Origin: Methanocorpusculum parvum
GTDB lineage: Archaea; Halobacteriota; Methanomicrobia; Methanomicrobiales; Methanocorpusculaceae
Assembly: GCA_015063085.1 (NCBI GenBank)
Contig: SUTD01000009.1
Coordinates: 1 to 49,019, forward strand
Reading direction: 5' to 3'
Length of the DNA stretch: 49,019 bases
Part shown: in pieces, positions 6,039-35,568 of the stretch
Layout of the letters: every line of letters begins with the position of its first letter
How positions within the stretch are numbered: the stretch's first letter is position 1
Notes under the pieces: model-generated
Seen by the model: only the letters and a program-made list of their open reading frames with translations
Told to the model about the DNA's origin: nothing
Databases searched by the model: none
Made by a program: the position numbers and the translations under genes

Positions 6039-7292
6039 TTAGTGGTGAGCCTGAATCTCAGCCGCACATGCATGTGCTTCTTTTCGCTCTTTTCTGAAGA
6101 AGATTCCGTTGAAGATCAGCGGCACAACAATTGTTGTCACCAGAGATACCACAACAATCGCGATAAAGAGCTCATTTCCGATAGCCAGAAGTTCTGCCGC
6201 CTCTGCCGGATTGACGGTAGCTTCTGCAAGCTCCTTGAAGTGATTTAAGGCGATAAGACCGACAATCATCGCCACCTCTCCGCGGGGCGTCATACCCACA
6301 CCAATCATCATCGACTCCTTCCAGGTCATACCCATAAACTTCGCCGGAAGACCGCAGCCGAGAATCTTTGTTGCGAGAGCCACAATACAGAGCACCACGA
6401 TAAATATCAGCATATCAGACTGCAGATAGCGCAAATCTGCGATGATACCCAAGGACACGAAGAAGATGGATGCGAATATGATGTAGAGATACTCTGCTCC
6501 AAGCTTGATATCCATACTGTGCTTCAAGTCCACACGGTTCACACACACACCGGCTAAGAATGCTCCAACGATTGCGGAGATGCCGACTGCTTCTGCACAC
6601 ATTGCATAGAAGAATGCAATCATCATTGCGAAGATGAACACGAACTCAGGGAATTTGCGGACAATTCTTGTGCCGTCCATCCAGTTGAGCAGCTTCGGGA
6701 TGAACTTTGCTCCAACGAGCGCTCCGACAATTACAAAGCCGAATGCTTTGATGATCATAAAGAGCACTCCGGTAAATGCAAGTTCACCGGTGGAACTTAA
6801 GTCCTGACAGACGGATAAGACAATTAAACTCAGCACATCATCAATAACGGCTGCACCAATAATCGCTTTCGCAAACGGTTGATGCAGCTTTCCCATTTCC
6901 CGCAAAACATTTGCGGTAATTGCGATACTTGTTGCCGTAAGCGCTGTTCCGATGAAGATTGCGGAATAGAAATCCATTCCAAACAGCATCGTACAAAGAT
7001 AACCGCCAATCCATGGTACAACCACACCGATGAGTGCTATCACTGCATATTTCCAGTTTGCAATGTCCCGCACTTCAAACTCGAAGCCGATAACGAACAG
7101 CAGAACAATTGAACCAAGTCCGGCAAGACCGTCAATGAAGTCTGTATAGGTGATAAGGCCGAGGACACTTGGACCTACCAGCAGACCGACCAGAATTTCT
7201 CCGATAACCGCGGACTGGTGAATACGGGTTGCCAGAAGATATCCACCAAGAGCCACGAAGAGTAATAAACTCATCTGGAATTCGATGGTGGA
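6039..7292 (-). CDS. CPA2-family cation:proton antiporter
   Basis: An integral membrane protein of about 417 residues with some twelve hydrophobic segments and no TrkA-type soluble domain. It belongs to the Na+(K+)/H+ antiporter family CPA2 (NapA/KefB type). Conserved signs are LVGPSVLGLI near the start, VIDDVLSLIVLSV (the Asp pair expected for ion binding) and MTPRGEVAMIVGL. The start at 7292 is chosen because GAGGAG lies directly before it; an in-frame ATG at 7310 lacks a ribosome site. It probably regulates cytoplasmic pH or Na+ in a methanogen that builds a Na+ gradient (inference). The C terminus is His/Ala rich. Confidence 0.9.
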   Translation of the reverse strand, partial: STIEFQMSLLLFVALGGYLLATRIHQSAVIGEILVGLLVGPSVLGLITYTDFIDGLAGLGSIVLLFVIGFEFEVRDIANWKYAVIALIGVVVPWIGGYLCTMLFGMDFYSAIFIGTALTATSIAITANVLREMGKLHQPFAKAIIGAAVIDDVLSLIVLSVCQDLSSTGELAFTGVLFMIIKAFGFVIVGALVGAKFIPKLLNWMDGTRIVRKFPEFVFIFAMMIAFFYAMCAEAVGISAIVGAFLAGVCVNRVDLKHSMDIKLGAEYLYIIFASIFFVSLGIIADLRYLQSDMLIFIVVLCIVALATKILGCGLPAKFMGMTWKESMMIGVGMTPRGEVAMIVGLIALNHFKELAEATVNPAEAAELLAIGNELFIAIVVVSLVTTIVVPLIFNGIFFRKERKEAHACAAEIQAHH

Positions 7293-30701: not shown

Positions 30702-31835
30702 ATGTATAATCAGACACTTCTCATGATGCCCGGACCTGTCCCCATGGCAGAATCGGTTCGCGGCGCAATGCTGAATCAGGCAATCAACCACAGAAGCAAG
30801 CAGCTTGGAGACTGCTACTCCGATATCGTCCGCATTTTACAGCCGGTCTTTGGAACCAAGAACGAGATTCTCGTCCTTTCCGGTTCAGGAACTGCCGGAC
30901 AGGAGGCAGCCATCGGCTCTTTTGCAAAGGGAAAGAAGGTCGCATCCTTAGTCAACGGTAAGTTCGGTGAGCGTCTTGGATTAATCTCCCAGATTTACGG
31001 CGAGACCACCATGATTGAGTCCGAGTGGGGACATGCACTGAATCTCGAGGCACTCGCAGAGTCTCTCGAAAACGGTGCTGAGGTGGTAACCCTTGTCCAC
31101 AACGAGACCTCTGCCGCCATCTTAAACCCGGCAGAAGAGGTTGGAAAGCTCTGTAAGAAACATGATGCCTTATTCATCCTCGACGGTATCACCTCTATCG
31201 GAGGAGATGTGGTCAAAGCTGATGAGTGGGGCGTTGATGTTGCAATCGTCGGCAGTCAGAAGTGTCTTGCAGCACCGGCAGGTCTTGCTGCTGTTTCTGT
31301 TTCCGAGAAGGCATGGGATAGACTTTCCGAGAACAGACCGTTCTACCTTGATTTAAAGAAGGCAAAGAAGTCCGCAGACGCATCTCCGAAGGAGACTCCG
31401 ACAACGCCTGCAGTTCCGCTCTTTATGGCAATGCGCGAGGCATGCCGCTTAATTGAGGAGGAGGGAATCGAGAACAGAATCGCCCGCCACAGAAAACTTT
31501 CCGCAGCAGTCCGCGAGGCAGGAAAGGTCTGGGGTCTTGCTCCGGTCCCGCAGGTTGATGCACTGCACGCTGCATCCAACACGGTCACCGGTTTCTTCTA
31601 TCCAGAGGGAATCGAGGACTCGCAGATTCGCGGATTCTGTAAGAAGATGGGAATCGAGTTTGCCGGCGGTCAGGACAGATTCAAGGGTAAGATTTTCCGT
31701 GTCGGCAATATGGGAATCATCGATACGCCGGAAATCCTCGCAACCGTCGCAACGATTCAGCTTGCATTCAAGAAGGCAGGATTCAAGCTCGGAGGAGACG
31801 GTCTCGAGGCAGCAGCAGAGATTCTCTCTGCATAA
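30702..31835 (+). CDS. Class V PLP aminotransferase (serine-pyruvate/alanine-glyoxylate type)
   Basis: A 377-residue pyridoxal phosphate enzyme. The family start LLMMPGPVPMAESVRGAM is followed by SGSGTAGQEAAIGS, the cofactor loop, and LFILDGITSIGGDVV with the PLP-binding Asp. The Schiff-base lysine is Lys187 in VGSQKCLAAPAG. In methanogens such proteins have been linked to aspartate or serine/glyoxylate transamination; the amino donor is not clear from sequence. It is divergent from purE across a 50-nt AT-rich promoter region. Nine T follow its stop. Confidence 0.9.
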   Translation: MYNQTLLMMPGPVPMAESVRGAMLNQAINHRSKQLGDCYSDIVRILQPVFGTKNEILVLSGSGTAGQEAAIGSFAKGKKVASLVNGKFGERLGLISQIYGETTMIESEWGHALNLEALAESLENGAEVVTLVHNETSAAILNPAEEVGKLCKKHDALFILDGITSIGGDVVKADEWGVDVAIVGSQKCLAAPAGLAAVSVSEKAWDRLSENRPFYLDLKKAKKSADASPKETPTTPAVPLFMAMREACRLIEEEGIENRIARHRKLSAAVREAGKVWGLAPVPQVDALHAASNTVTGFFYPEGIEDSQIRGFCKKMGIEFAGGQDRFKGKIFRVGNMGIIDTPEILATVATIQLAFKKAGFKLGGDGLEAAAEILSA

Positions 31836-31844
31836 TTTTTTTTT
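31836..31844 (+). terminator. Oligo-T terminator after the aminotransferase
   Basis: Nine consecutive T directly after the TAA. It separates the aminotransferase from the foreign-looking cassette that begins downstream. Confidence 0.6.
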
Positions 31845-31876
31845 CGCGCGCCAACCACGCTTCCCGGATTTTATTT

Positions 31877-31890
31877 CCAACACGTGTTGG
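31877..31890. promoter_or_regulatory. Palindromic site 1, candidate TetR operator
   Basis: CCAACACGTGTTGG is a perfect 14-bp palindrome, upstream of the TATA box of the cassette. It shares the ACAC/GTGT half-sites with site 2. Confidence 0.5.
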
Positions 31891-31921
31891 TTTTTTGCAG
31901 ATTCATTTCTGACAGCCCAAA

Positions 31922-31934
31922 ACATATTATATTC
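31922..31934 (+). promoter_or_regulatory. TATA box of the cassette promoter
   Basis: ACATATTATATTC lies about 40-50 nt upstream of the start codon at 31973. Initiation some 25 nt downstream would fall in or just after the palindrome at 31937-31953, which suits repression by a bound regulator. Confidence 0.45.
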
Positions 31935-31936
31935 AA

Positions 31937-31953
31937 AAACACAACATGTGTTT
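31937..31953. promoter_or_regulatory. Palindromic site 2, candidate TetR operator
   Basis: AAACACA-ACA-TGTGTTT has perfect 7-bp arms and lies between the TATA box and the start codon of the cassette's first gene. It resembles site 1. The likely ligand protein is the TetR regulator encoded convergently at 33510-34052. Confidence 0.55.
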
Positions 31954-31972
31954 AATTAATGATGGTGAGTGT

Positions 31973-32209
31973 ATGATTTCACTGAAAAAACAGAACGATA
32001 AAATCCGTGATGCAGCAGTCGGCGGCTATTTTGCCATCGAAAACGGTGTTGTCTGCGGATACAAAAAAATCGAGACTGGAGTTGTTTCCGGTTACAGGAA
32101 GATTGAAGACGCATTTCTGCAGAACTTTGTCTGCGGATACGGCGAGAGCATTGAAGATGCCAGAAAGCGGATTTCCGAGCCGAGGGATTTTGTGCGGAGG
32201 AGACGCTGA
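31973..32209 (+). CDS. GYKKIE-repeat small protein of Clostridia type
   Basis: A 78-residue polar protein with three imperfect 11-14-residue units: GYFAIENGVVC, GYKKIETGVVS and GYRKIEDAFLQ. It ends GESIEDARKRISEP and a basic tail. Proteins of this pattern are familiar from gut Clostridia (Lachnospiraceae and relatives), where they are uncharacterised; I know none typical of methanogens. The start at 31973 has GGTGAG just upstream; the frame opens at 31946 but that ATG lies inside the palindrome. The stop overlaps the next gene (TGATG), so the two are co-translated. Confidence 0.78.
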   Translation: MISLKKQNDKIRDAAVGGYFAIENGVVCGYKKIETGVVSGYRKIEDAFLQNFVCGYGESIEDARKRISEPRDFVRRRR

Positions 32210-32583
32210 TGAAAAAGCTGAACTTTGTATCTCTCCTGCTTGGCATCATCGGCACTCTGCTCCTCGGTTTTGGTATGAGCTGCTGTTTAGTTCCGGAGTT
32301 TAATGCACCAACCGCAGGGATTGTTCTCGGCATCATCGGCATTCTTGTTCTTCTCGTGATGCTGGTTGTAAGACGCAAAATGCAGGGAAAATCTGTTATT
32401 GTTGCACTGAATGCAAAAACAGTGTTTGCAATCCTTATTGGAATTGTCGGCACTCTCCTGTTCGGTCTTGGATTATGCCTCTGTATGGTGTTTACCGAAT
32501 ACTTCATCTGGGGAATTGTCGCGGCAGTCGCAGGAATTGCCGTACTGCTCAGCTTAATTCCGTTCTGCGGAAAACTCGAATAA
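32209..32583 (+). CDS. Small membrane protein with duplicated two-helix unit, Clostridia-like
   Basis: A 124-residue protein with four membrane helices arising from a tandem duplication. Unit 1 has LLGIIGTLLLGFGMSCCLV and unit 2 has LIGIVGTLLFGLGLCLCMV, each followed by a Gly/Ile-rich helix; RRKMQGK joins them. Similar proteins are common in Firmicutes with no assigned function. It overlaps the preceding gene by one base and ends 28 nt before the next. Confidence 0.78.
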   Translation: MKKLNFVSLLLGIIGTLLLGFGMSCCLVPEFNAPTAGIVLGIIGILVLLVMLVVRRKMQGKSVIVALNAKTVFAILIGIVGTLLFGLGLCLCMVFTEYFIWGIVAAVAGIAVLLSLIPFCGKLE

Positions 32584-32611
32584 ATTCACCGCTTCCTCCG
32601 CCAAATAACCC

Positions 32612-33502
32612 ATGAGCGCAAGACTATTCAGGATTCTCTGGACAAAACTCCTCTCCCCTCCTCTTTGGCTCACCTGCATATTTGCGTTAGTCTCTGCTGT
32701 ATCTCTTTTTCAGATATTCTCCGGCGGGCTTGAAAATTCACCTGCTGCGTATGCAATGTATGCGTTCTCGTTCTACTCTCTTCTTGTGCTCTCTTTTGCA
32801 GTTGTAATTTATGTGCCGCGCTTGTATTCCGCTATGAGGAATACTGTGTATGATAACTCGTACACAAGACAGTATATTACTGATGCAGTATTCAAGACTC
32901 AGATTAATCTTGCAGGCTCGGTGATTCTTGATGTTTCCTATGCAGGAGTGAATGTTCTGCTTGCCGTCTTTTACCAGACAAACTGGTTCACAATTTTTGC
33001 AGGATACTATGCTGTTCTTTCCTTCCTTCGGGTTCTGCTTTTCCAGAATCTTTTCAGAAGGAAGGAACATCCGCTTCACGGATTAAAACGAGCACGGTTC
33101 TGCTCCGGCATTCTCCTGACGGTAAATCTGGTGCTTTCTGCACTGGTTTTGATGATGCTGTACCGTCCGCATGAGTTCGGCGATATGGGAGTGCTCATTT
33201 ATGTTGCCGCACTCTACACATTCTCCGCTCTTGCTGTGTCGCTTACCGGACTTATCAGATTCAGAAAATATACGAGCCCTGTTTTATCCGTCTCCCGGAT
33301 GATTAGCCTGACTGCGGCTCTTGTGTCTCTGCTGATTTTAGAAACAGCAATGCTTTCTCAGTTTGGTGGAGACATGCCTCTTTCAACGCAGAATATTCTC
33401 ATCGCGGCAACAGGAGCTGGAATCAGCATTTTCATTATCGTGACAGCACTTTATATGATTATCCGCACCACACAAAAAATCAATAGGGTAAAAGAATCCT
33501 GA
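32612..33502 (+). CDS. Multi-spanning membrane protein of unknown function, Clostridia-like
   Basis: A 296-residue integral membrane protein with about eight hydrophobic segments and a basic C terminus. Recognisable stretches (RNTVYDNSYTRQYITD, SPVLSVSRMISLTAALVSLLILETAMLSQF) match, from memory, a family of unnamed membrane proteins in gut Firmicutes. No catalytic motif or transporter signature is visible. It is third in the cassette and converges on the TetR gene, with 7 nt between stop codons. Confidence 0.75.
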   Translation: MSARLFRILWTKLLSPPLWLTCIFALVSAVSLFQIFSGGLENSPAAYAMYAFSFYSLLVLSFAVVIYVPRLYSAMRNTVYDNSYTRQYITDAVFKTQINLAGSVILDVSYAGVNVLLAVFYQTNWFTIFAGYYAVLSFLRVLLFQNLFRRKEHPLHGLKRARFCSGILLTVNLVLSALVLMMLYRPHEFGDMGVLIYVAALYTFSALAVSLTGLIRFRKYTSPVLSVSRMISLTAALVSLLILETAMLSQFGGDMPLSTQNILIAATGAGISIFIIVTALYMIIRTTQKINRVKES

Positions 33503-33509
33503 GGAGTAC

Positions 33510-34052
33510 TCAGATTCTTTTTTCGATACTTTTTTCCTGGTATTCAGAATAGAGGATGCTGAGCATTTCTTCTGGTGTTTCCTTGCATCCTTCGTTTAAC
33601 CAGAGTTTGATTATGGCGCTTAAGCCGTGACGGAAAAATTCCTGGTGGTACTTTCCATAGATATCCTGATGGTATGTACTTGCTTTTGCGGCTCCGTCAT
33701 TCGGTATTGGCAAACGGCCGTCTCGTCCGAGTTTAAAGTATGTTTTATATTGCGGCTGATTTTCTTTAATGTGGGTGAAGAGAGACAGAAGGACTGAATC
33801 GGATCTGCTTCTGTTCAGCATCTCGTTGCCGAAAATTGCAATGGTTTCTGCTTCCAGACGGTTCATCTCCGCATTTGCCAAATCCTGCAGGTCGCGGTAG
33901 TTCATGTAGAAGGTTGTCCGGTTGATTCCTGCTTTGCTGCAGATATCAGTGACACTGATGTCGTCAAGCTCGCGGGTTTCCAGAAGGTCAATAAATGCAG
34001 TATGAATTTTGAGAAGAGTATTTTGTCTGCGTTTATTGTTTGGAACGTTCAT
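33510..34052 (-). CDS. TetR/AcrR-family transcriptional regulator, Clostridia-like
   Basis: A 180-residue TetR protein. The N-terminal helix-turn-helix reads TLLKIHTAFIDLLETRELDD, then ISVTDICSKAGINRTTFYMNY. The C-terminal half (KYHQEFFRHGLSAIIKLWLNEGCKETPEEM) is of the kind found in low-GC Gram-positive regulators (TetR_C_8-like). It is convergent with the three cassette genes and probably controls them through the palindromes at 31877 and 31937. Its own start is 39 nt from the 3' end of tRNA-Val. The inducer is unknown. Confidence 0.87.
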   Translation of the reverse strand: MNVPNNKRRQNTLLKIHTAFIDLLETRELDDISVTDICSKAGINRTTFYMNYRDLQDLANAEMNRLEAETIAIFGNEMLNRSRSDSVLLSLFTHIKENQPQYKTYFKLGRDGRLPIPNDGAAKASTYHQDIYGKYHQEFFRHGLSAIIKLWLNEGCKETPEEMLSILYSEYQEKSIEKRI

Positions 34053-34091
34053 GATAGTGTTTAGTGGAATTGAGAAAATCAGAAAAAGAAG

Positions 34092-34165
34092 TGGACCCGC
34101 TGAGATTCGAACTCAGGACCTCCGCCATGTCAAGGCGACGTCATAGCCTGCTAGACCACGAGTCC
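34092..34165 (-). tRNA. tRNA-Val (anticodon GAC)
   Basis: A 74-nt cloverleaf reads on the minus strand: acceptor GGACTCG paired to CGGGTCC (one G-U), D arm GTC/GAC, anticodon stem TCGCC/GGCGG with loop TTGACAT, and T arm CTGAG-TTCGAAT-CTCAG. The discriminator base is A and no CCA is encoded. Anticodon GAC reads GUC/GUU valine codons. A TATA box lies upstream at 34216-34223. Confidence 0.93.
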
Positions 34166-34233: not shown

Positions 34234-34713
34234 TCACTTTGACTCAATCTGAGCCAGAAGCTCTGCTCTGTGCGGTGCGGCATCTGCTCCGTACTTCTTT
34301 GCAAGAAGAACAACAGCCGCATAATCTCCAATCAGATTGTCGAAATGCGCTCTGATTTCGCTTAGTTCGCCAACGAGCGCCTTCGTATCAAGACCGGACT
34401 TTGCAGCAACCTCTGCGAGAAGCGTATCCAAAACATCCTTCTTCTCCGGCAAAGGCGCGGAAAATATTTCATCAGTCGGCCGGAAGCCGAGCGGAATCTT
34501 CTCCTCGCGCAGAGACTCCGTCAGCACAAACTCCCCGTGCTCATCCTTTGTCAGAATCCCTGCGGCAAGACCGATTGTTATCAGCTTCTTCGCATCATCC
34601 AGCCCCATCCACCGCTTATCCTGCGTATAGTAAAACACCAGCTTCATCTGCGAAAGAACCGGTGAACGCATGTGAACGAAAGGTGCTGCTAAAGTAATCT
34701 CCAGTTCTCCCAT
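34234..34713 (-). CDS. DUF2240 family protein
   Basis: A 159-residue soluble protein matching DUF2240, an archaeal family of unknown function. An N-terminal winged-helix-like part (DDAKKLITIGLAAGILTKDEHGEFVLTESL) is followed by a helical region ending NLIGDYAAVVLLAKKYG. It overlaps the preceding gene's stop by one base (TAATG) and is co-translated with it. A role in RNA or DNA transactions is only a guess. Confidence 0.82.
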   Translation of the reverse strand: MGELEITLAAPFVHMRSPVLSQMKLVFYYTQDKRWMGLDDAKKLITIGLAAGILTKDEHGEFVLTESLREEKIPLGFRPTDEIFSAPLPEKKDVLDTLLAEVAAKSGLDTKALVGELSEIRAHFDNLIGDYAAVVLLAKKYGADAAPHRAELLAQIESK

Positions 34714-35129
34714 TATGCCATCACCTGATAAATATATTCAGCCGCATCCTTTGACGAAATCATCTGCGGATTTGTCGTATGCGACACATAAATCTCAGTC
34801 ACGCCTCCATTGTCGAGCAGTTTTACCATAAACTTCTGTGCGGGTTCAGGTCTGTATCCGTCAGATTTGAGCACCGTATCAGAAATCGTCAGCAGAAAAT
34901 CCGCCTCATCGCTGACACCGGAAAGCGCCTGCAAAGATGCCGTCTCAAAATCCAGGCGGTTGCAGGCAACCTGCAGATGAATCTCCCGCTTCACTGCTCC
35001 CTTCTCTGTTCGGAAATTATCCTGCATCGAAGACAATGCCGCAATCCTCTCAAGACAACAGGAAAACGGTTTTCGGACAAGAAGCGAACAGTCAAAAGTC
35101 TTCGGGAACTGATAGGAGACGCGGCGCAT
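34713..35129 (-). CDS. Conserved archaeal protein of unknown function upstream of DUF2240
   Basis: A 138-residue protein I do not recognise by family. The start at 35129 (MRRVSYQFPKTFDCS) is preferred over an in-frame Met eight codons earlier. It shows an alternating strand pattern (REIHLQVACNRLDFE, FMVKLLDNGGVTEIYVSH) and a C-terminal helix DAAEYIYQVMA. This suggests a small alpha/beta domain, possibly KEOPS Pcc1-like (CTAG/PCC1 proteins have similar length), but I cannot confirm that. Its stop overlaps the DUF2240 start. Confidence 0.65.
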   Translation of the reverse strand: MRRVSYQFPKTFDCSLLVRKPFSCCLERIAALSSMQDNFRTEKGAVKREIHLQVACNRLDFETASLQALSGVSDEADFLLTISDTVLKSDGYRPEPAQKFMVKLLDNGGVTEIYVSHTTNPQMISSKDAAEYIYQVMA

Positions 35130-35190
35130 GAATAGTATTCGACGCCAACGCACATGAATCTTACAGTAAAGGGTAGAAAAAAAATTATAT

Positions 35191-35568
35191 TTATTCGATC
35201 AGAACTGCGTTGATAACGCCGTCCTGACCTGGTCTGCTGACGATGCGTGCTTTACCGAGGTCGGTTGCAATGACTGCGCCCTTGGTCATAAGGTTACGGC
35301 GGACGTAGTTCGGGTTTGCTGCGTTCTCTGCAACGGAGAGAATCTTGACCTTCTGGACCTTTCCGGTCTTGGTGTCGCTGACGTTTGCGAACTCACAGCG
35401 GAGTGCGCGAACCTTGGTGTTGCCTCCGGTAGTGCGGATAGTCTTGACCTTGTTCTCTCCAAGGACAGTATCTGCTGCCGGTCTTCCGATTTCGGTTCTT
35501 CTCTTTCCGCGGGCTGCGTGGTAGCGGCCTCCGGTGGATTTACGGGTGGATTTTCCCTGCCAAAGCAT
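35191..35568 (-). CDS. rps8e: 30S ribosomal protein S8e
   Basis: An archaeal/eukaryotic-type small-subunit protein of 125 residues, the usual archaeal length. It is recognised by the basic start WQGKSTRKSTGGRYHAARGK, then NPNYVRRNLMTKGAVIATD and the end RPGQDGVINAVLIE. A run of T on the coding strand follows (AAAAAAAATT at 35177 onward on the plus strand). It is transcribed alone. Confidence 0.96.
   Translation of the reverse strand: MLWQGKSTRKSTGGRYHAARGKRRTEIGRPAADTVLGENKVKTIRTTGGNTKVRALRCEFANVSDTKTGKVQKVKILSVAENAANPNYVRRNLMTKGAVIATDLGKARIVSRPGQDGVINAVLIE

Follow-up and report, generated by a model that had tools for sequence, protein, structure and literature searches.

The LiaIH and PspA systems place small membrane proteins and a peripheral amphipathic protein under stress control. 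Here we describe a four-gene cassette of Methanocorpusculum parvum, located in a contig of 49,019 nt (SUTD01000009.1 of assembly GCA_015063085.1; hereafter the window) from a metagenome-assembled genome (MAG) of 1.40 Mb that is 79.8% complete, which may work in a comparable way. It encodes a repeat protein (GYK), two membrane proteins (TM2 and TM8) and a TetR-family regulator; GYK itself has no match to the PspA/LiaH family. The regulator shares its TetR_C_8 domain with DhaS-like regulators (TIGR02366; PDB 4mk6 and 2iu5) but scores below the DhaS cut-off, and the cassette lacks dihydroxyacetone kinase genes. TM8 resembles proteins of the CDF family (ZnT, YiiP) in the predicted fold of residues 94–296, but differs from them in having no family match, in the apparent lack of the ligand residues and in two extra N-terminal helices. 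A TetR-family factor that regulates archaeal genes, FadR of Sulfolobus acidocaldarius, acts on fatty acid metabolism (PMC6449355), whereas the proposed targets of the cassette regulator are a membrane operon with clostridial-type operators. Literature searches returned no paper containing GYKKIE, and those on transfer in Methanocorpusculum, on interdomain transfer, on archaeal operators and on TetR, amphipathic proteins and membrane stress listed no description of the module, as judged by title and the start of the abstract. We consider it likely that a clostridial TetR regulon entered an archaeal clade with its operators and that its TetR represses the operon, because homologs of all four parts occur in Clostridia, the cassette is restricted to one archaeal clade, its genes are under purifying selection and two operator-like sites are conserved. 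Considered alone, transfer from Clostridia together with the operators is very probable on comparative grounds.

A scan of species genomes with a GYK pattern returned four further Methanocorpusculum MAGs and a single Oscillospiraceae MAG, from water buffalo cecum, in which all four components are present (locus L037) with identities to the window of 47% for TetR, 51% for GYK, 36% for TM2 and 26% for TM8. A TM2 profile matched 42 of 291 genomes of the same class (25 at full length) and 26 of 95 genomes of another order. The kinship with gut Firmicutes that an initial annotation of this DNA had proposed is borne out by homologs of all four proteins in gut Clostridia. We fetched 47 bacterial loci to compare their architecture. 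TetR is divergent from the operon in 27, and 18 of these have all four components, the common layout being a divergon of TetR with TM2-TM8-GYK (e.g. L037/L069, L090, L228). This form shares with the archaeal cassette all four components and the same operator-like pair; its TetR is divergent and its TM8 mostly short, whereas in the archaea TetR is convergent, the order is GYK-TM2-TM8 and TM8 is long. In a further 15 loci a response regulator and/or kinase replaces TetR (L233 also has a distant TetR), and the remaining five have no visible regulator, some being cut by contig ends. The two-component form (TM2, GYK, response regulator, kinase and long TM8; e.g. L088, L091, L233) has the long TM8 in common with the archaea, about 300 amino acids or more in the nine such loci where it is whole (TM8 of TetR loci is mostly shorter), and supplies the nearest kin of archaeal TM2 and TM8, but its PhoB/OmpR-type regulator and kinase, without TetR operators, are unlike the archaeal cassette. 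Two loci depart from these types: L234 has the order GYK-TM2 beneath a divergent TetR, and L221 has TM2, GYK and a long TM8 with no visible regulator. The initial annotation had suggested looking elsewhere for the four-gene order; it recurs, with the same four genes, in the four other Methanocorpusculum MAGs but not in Clostridia, where TetR is divergent.

Other features were seen in these bacterial loci. Several two-component loci (L088, 10409–10840; similarly L085, L091, L096, L097 and L233) encode one more small protein, in which a soluble N-terminal region is joined to one two-helix unit resembling that of TM2. In L069, L070, L071, L072, L078 and L228, TM8 and GYK share one uninterrupted frame that retains an internal GYK ATG, preceded in several by a GGAGG-like signal, so that GYK could be made as part of a fusion and also on its own. 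The commonest protein cluster outside the module occurs in 8 of the 47 loci, from which we draw no inference.

The archaeal locus has the following features in window coordinates.

31875..31892, no strand: candidate operator 1, TTCCAACACGTGTTGGTT, containing the perfect palindrome CCAACACGTGTTGG; highest motif score in the window
31924..31933, plus strand: TATA-like element ATATTATATT between the two operator sites, recognised by eye
31939..31956, no strand: candidate operator 2, ACACAACATGTGTTTAAT; second-best motif score in the window
31973..32209, plus strand: GYK, 78 amino acids, with 11-residue repeats (VVxGYKKIExG)
32209..32583, plus strand: TM2, 124 amino acids, a duplicated two-helix (four-helix) membrane protein
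32612..33502, plus strand: TM8, 296 amino acids, an eight-helix membrane protein
33510..34052, minus strand: TetR-family regulator of the TetR_C_8 type (Pfam match)
30702..31835: left neighbour, a class V aminotransferase gene with its stop codon at 31833–31835
31836..31844, plus strand: run of nine T directly 3' of the aminotransferase stop (sequence and pattern scan)
34091..34165, minus strand: right neighbour, tRNA-Val (gac), upstream of tetR on the same strand (ARAGORN)

As the initial annotation had stated, GYK, TM2 and TM8 are co-oriented and converge on TetR, and all four open reading frames are intact. Its cassette edges also stand: on the left, a hairpin at 31815–31831 and the nine-T run form a terminator-like signal after the aminotransferase gene, and on the right 38 nt separate the TetR start (34052) from the tRNA-Val 3' end (34091). 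GYK most likely begins at the ATG at 31973 and not at the mechanical start of its reading frame at 31946; a GGTGAG at 31964–31969 precedes this ATG, and the protein has 78 residues from the corresponding ATG in all five carriers, that is, the window genome and the four other MAGs. Gene GC content ranges from 0.435 to 0.506, against 0.50 for the window.

Intergenic regions between tetR and the operon in Clostridia contain a pair of CAACA-N2-TGTTG-type sites, the first adjacent to tetR and the second directly after the -10 element. They lie 68–69 bp apart in 21 of 27 regions; among the other six, spacings are 71, 71, 63, 60 and 19 bp (the last with a weak partner) and one region has a single site. 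When a matrix was built from 53 clostridial sites, the archaeal sites at 31875 and 31939 ranked first (22.9) and second (16.7) in the window and likewise took the top two places in each of the other four carrier loci, at a spacing of 64 bp in all five. The same matrix gave 15.3–22.1 for the 27 TetR regions, which are its own source, and -2.0 to 10.3 for control regions upstream of 10 of the 20 loci without a divergent TetR. A second motif, relearned with clostridial words as the sole input (162 starts, constrained to be palindromic), again placed these two sites first (18.9) and second (15.0) in the 49-kb window, and they were the top two in the carrier loci L034 and L035; none of 200 dinucleotide shuffles reached 18.9, and none contained a pair of at least 15.0 within 150 bp. 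In the recognition region of TetR, residues G42, N44, R45, T47, F48, Y49 and N51 are identical in the window, L034 and L037. Site 1 occupies the place of tetR in the clostridial divergon and is kept in 5/5 carriers although tetR no longer adjoins it, which suggests a role in control of the operon. Site 2 lies between the TATA-like element and the start codon, a placement that would suit a block of archaeal initiation; a comparable TATA-like element occupies the corresponding position in each of the other four carriers. A wider TetR regulon in the genome was considered and set aside, the consensus being no commoner there than its backward control. The third-best operator-like palindrome of the window, at 6122–6139 (GCACAACAATTGTTGTCA), is possibly a second target and possibly a chance match.

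Phylogenetic trees were built from 32 TM8, 32 TetR and 44 TM2 rows; short hits below a set length were excluded, as was L086 from the TM8 tree, having shown a very long branch in a smaller tree. In the TM8 tree, 17 TetR-type rows split off with support of 100/100, and the opposite set comprises the archaea, eight two-component rows and two without a visible regulator. The TM2 tree places the archaea in a set (96/91) with seven two-component rows and four without a regulator, and the smaller tree set gave the same picture for both proteins. When midpoint-rooted, the main trees put archaeal TM2 and TM8 inside bacterial diversity. For TetR, support is modest (85–87 bootstrap) for placing the archaeal sequences among TetR-type rows, and in the smaller tree, rooted at its midpoint, they stand next to the 18 bacterial rows taken together; GYK, for which a tree was built in the smaller set only, is too short to be placed. 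Together these trees suggest that the unit is a mosaic, in which TM2 and TM8 group with the two-component branch while regulator and operators are of the TetR type. By an approximately unbiased test, a single clade of TetR-type TM2 could not be rejected (p 0.101); L234 is a long row in this set. Movement from bacteria to archaea is the favoured direction because the bacterial diversity is wide and the archaeal members form a single twig.

A close TetR occurs in 5 of 25 Methanocorpusculum genomes, including the window's own, GYK in the same five among 61 genomes of relatives, and TM2 in two of 392 phylum genomes: the window's own, and a second with a weak partial match inside a 524-residue frame, which we regard as spurious. 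TetR identity to the other four carriers is 82–90%, and the remaining matches in the genus are paralogs at 24–40%. Closest homologs of all four genes that are archaeal and vertically inherited, or a gene order ancestral to the Methanomicrobiales, had been named at the outset as the finding that would speak against a bacterial source; on the distribution of TetR, GYK and TM2, vertical archaeal inheritance was rejected. Goats (cecum and colon), dairy cattle (colon) and water deer (colon) are the sources of the four other carrier MAGs. These hosts fit the 'host clade 2' (pachyderms and ruminants) of PMC10035134, which also reports further genes of bacterial origin in Methanocorpusculum. In a 22-genome tree of three flanking genes, the carriers and one near relative (G014) form a clade of six with 100/100 support, within which the branch order of G014 lacks resolution. 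Pairwise ratios of non-synonymous to synonymous change (dN/dS) among the carriers are 0.03–0.47 for GYK, 0.05–0.22 for TM2, 0.18–0.29 for TM8 and 0.09–0.20 for TetR. The cassette is under purifying selection and has been kept in the clade; since its order is preserved in four other MAGs and dN/dS is below 0.5, the four-gene set is more than a chance assembly. Both GC content and dN/dS are in keeping with an old acquisition. Between the window and the other carriers, synonymous divergence is 0.49–1.11 for TM8 and TetR and 0.12–0.31 for GYK and TM2, as if the right half of the window cassette (32612–34052) had a different recombination history from the left (31973–32580). The suggestion of the initial annotation that a self-contained unit may have moved from a bacterium to an archaeon is supported by the clostridial homologs, the one-clade distribution and the trees.

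Among the four proteins, TetR alone exceeds the cut-off of any Pfam or NCBIfam family: it scores 36.6 bits against TetR_C_8 (PF14278; cut-off 26.1), 14.9 bits against TetR_N (PF00440; cut-off 24) and 41.3 bits against DhaS (TIGR02366; cut-off 129). Its profile aligns residues 12–167 to TetR structures such as 4mk6, and its best solved relatives are the DhaS-like 4mk6 (E 4.5e-16) and 2iu5. Self-matches and structure models confirm the earlier descriptions of a GYKKIE-repeat protein, a duplicated two-helix protein and an eight-helix protein. The GYKKIE repeat has a period of 11 residues, with self-identity at offset 11 of 34% in the window and 51% in the L069 homolog, and its periodicity and computed helical moment count in favour of GYK being a probable amphipathic surface helix. 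For GYK, a Pfam search at E up to 1 gave nothing, and the one NCBIfam match is far below cut-off. The internal duplication of TM2 appears as a best ungapped self-match of 15 identities at offset 65 and a DNA repeat (32234/32432) that is 71% identical; its structure model has four long helices (mean confidence score, pLDDT, 66.8). The TM8 model has eight long predicted helices and is poor (pLDDT 58.6); its last 200 residues (approximately 94–296) are predicted, at low confidence, to adopt a zinc-transporter (CDF)-like fold. Seven proteins searched against PADLOC models of anti-phage defence gave no match at E up to 0.1.

Several observations weigh against a transferred, operator-bearing regulon and bear on competing explanations. 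The archaeal stems are long (1.0–2.0 changes per site), as would be expected if the cassette were an old archaeal inheritance with many losses or had passed from archaea to bacteria; this is nonetheless highly improbable, given TM2 in two phylum genomes (one doubtful) against the clostridial counts above and the position of archaeal TM2 and TM8 within bacterial diversity. The combination of TetR with a long-branch TM8 is absent from all bacterial loci examined, so that either sampling has missed the donor or TetR and this TM8 were brought together later. Every carrier seen is a MAG, which raises contamination or misassembly; however, the window and the goat, cattle and water deer MAGs, five diverged genomes in all, share the same flanks, on contigs that reach 389 kb, and artefact is scarcely credible. 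The archaeal TetR matches phrog_14982 (3.6e-21) and phrog_11366, phage families of unknown function; GYK, TM2 and TM8 have no PHROGs match, and GYK has none in phage or plasmid records, clostridial TM2 none in plasmids, L037 TetR none in plasmids at E 1e-15, and the TetR and TM2 alignments none in viral contigs, these last being weak tests with patterns of few rows. Carriage by phage or plasmid was dropped on these searches. The initial annotation had placed the insertion at the tRNA end, and the short distance to tRNA-Val and the variable DNA following this tRNA across the genus would suit an integrative element or its remnant. That placement found no support, and such an element is improbable: the last 19 nt of tRNA-Val have no second copy in the window at up to 3 mismatches and, as had been observed before, no integrase family is found among the four cassette genes in Pfam or NCBIfam, the scope of that annotation being the cassette and not the whole window. 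Comparison with a close strain, also proposed in the initial annotation, was informative at one flank: after its aminotransferase gene, G014 has 441 nt without cassette, up to the contig end, but no closed empty site was obtained since its contigs end first. Its 17 nt after tRNA-Val, again up to a contig end, resemble the carrier sequence, from which the window departs at one position; if the site is empty, the junction would therefore lie away from the tRNA end. The 441 nt (L137) are repeat-like non-coding DNA at the place where carriers hold the cassette, and may have broken the assembly. Beyond the tRNA-Val of this clade lie genes for DUF2240, a 146-residue protein and an S8e-like 125-residue protein (34237–35568). 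DUF2240 has homologs in 24 genomes of the genus; tRNA-Val adjoins it in all six members of the clade, and no tRNA lies within the fetched 1.5-kb flanks of the other 18, where the neighbours differ. Because this adjacency is confined to the clade of six, the flanking order is itself clade-specific. DNA downstream of this tRNA-Val differs widely across Methanocorpusculum genomes (window 34091–34165; L163–L187), and the region is possibly an insertion hotspot.

Similar caution applies to the operators and to TM8. The palindromes might not be operators at all, site 1 being readable as a short hairpin terminator (5 pairs, then T) and the motif match being coincidental. Simple counts lend this some weight: at one mismatch the consensus has 4 window matches, and 7 of 100 shuffles have as many; in the whole genome it occurs 8 times forward and 9 in reverse, and its backward control 11 and 8 times; and words in the clostridial regions are led by -10 words (up to 24/27), with operator half-words reaching 15/27, each expected about once or less, when across 100 shuffles the top count for any word was 14. 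Moreover, the seed consensus of the first matrix was picked with the archaeal sites in view, and the relearned motif puts site 2 third in L036 and outside the top three in L033. We hold that motif score, promoter position, fixed spacing and conservation outweigh simple counts, and that non-operator palindromes are improbable, in view of the shuffles, of a 64-bp spacing constant in five carriers and of site 2 standing at the promoter. A different function is a more serious contender. TM8 could be a working exporter of a metal, organic cation or drug, in a TetR-regulated efflux operon with TM2 and GYK as accessories; the predicted CDF-like fold comes from a low-confidence model. A Pfam search at E up to 1 gave TM8 no family, PF01545 (CDF) included, and the TM8 profile (without L086) scores a non-significant 22.2 against 30 CDF proteins, at the level of the reversed control (20.2); a control pairing of the CDF with a kinase alignment scored 21.9. 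Metal ligands of CDF proteins such as YiiP are His and Asp residues in helices 2 and 5. At these positions TM8 is mostly hydrophobic or aromatic, as read by eye in that non-significant alignment, and we regard efflux as rather unlikely.

The explanation we prefer is that a clostridial TetR-controlled membrane-response regulon, with its operator DNA, would have entered the ancestor of a ruminant-gut Methanocorpusculum clade. TetR would bind both sites and, because of where operator 2 lies, block the archaeal promoter, a predicted repression that we consider quite probable. A hydrophobic or membrane-active ligand might then free TetR, whereupon the three products would come together at the membrane, with TM2 and TM8 embedded in it, the latter as a CDF-like scaffold that lacks a metal site, and GYK lying on its surface as an amphipathic helix. 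Once assembled they would protect or stabilise the membrane by a logic akin to Lia/Psp responses, although we put forward this protective role only tentatively. A broader interpretation is possible, if short of probable: that gut Firmicutes have an undescribed membrane-protection module, in which a surface helix of 11-residue repeats stands alongside a duplicated two-helix protein and a protein of CDF fold that lacks the metal site, and which has interchangeable TetR or two-component controllers; that methanogens acquired it in mosaic form, operators included; and that the bacterial repressor now acts on an archaeal TATA promoter, maybe derived from the old -10 region.

The module is common in Clostridia, yet its three output proteins are unnamed by Pfam and NCBIfam above cut-off. 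Bacterial and archaeal promoters and transcription machinery differ, which raises the question of how transferred genes come under regulation in an archaeon. This locus allows a repressor, the genes it would control and two candidate operators to be set against their counterparts in the other domain, and makes it testable whether an archaeal TetR recognises clostridial operators and whether repression works by covering the region between TATA element and start.

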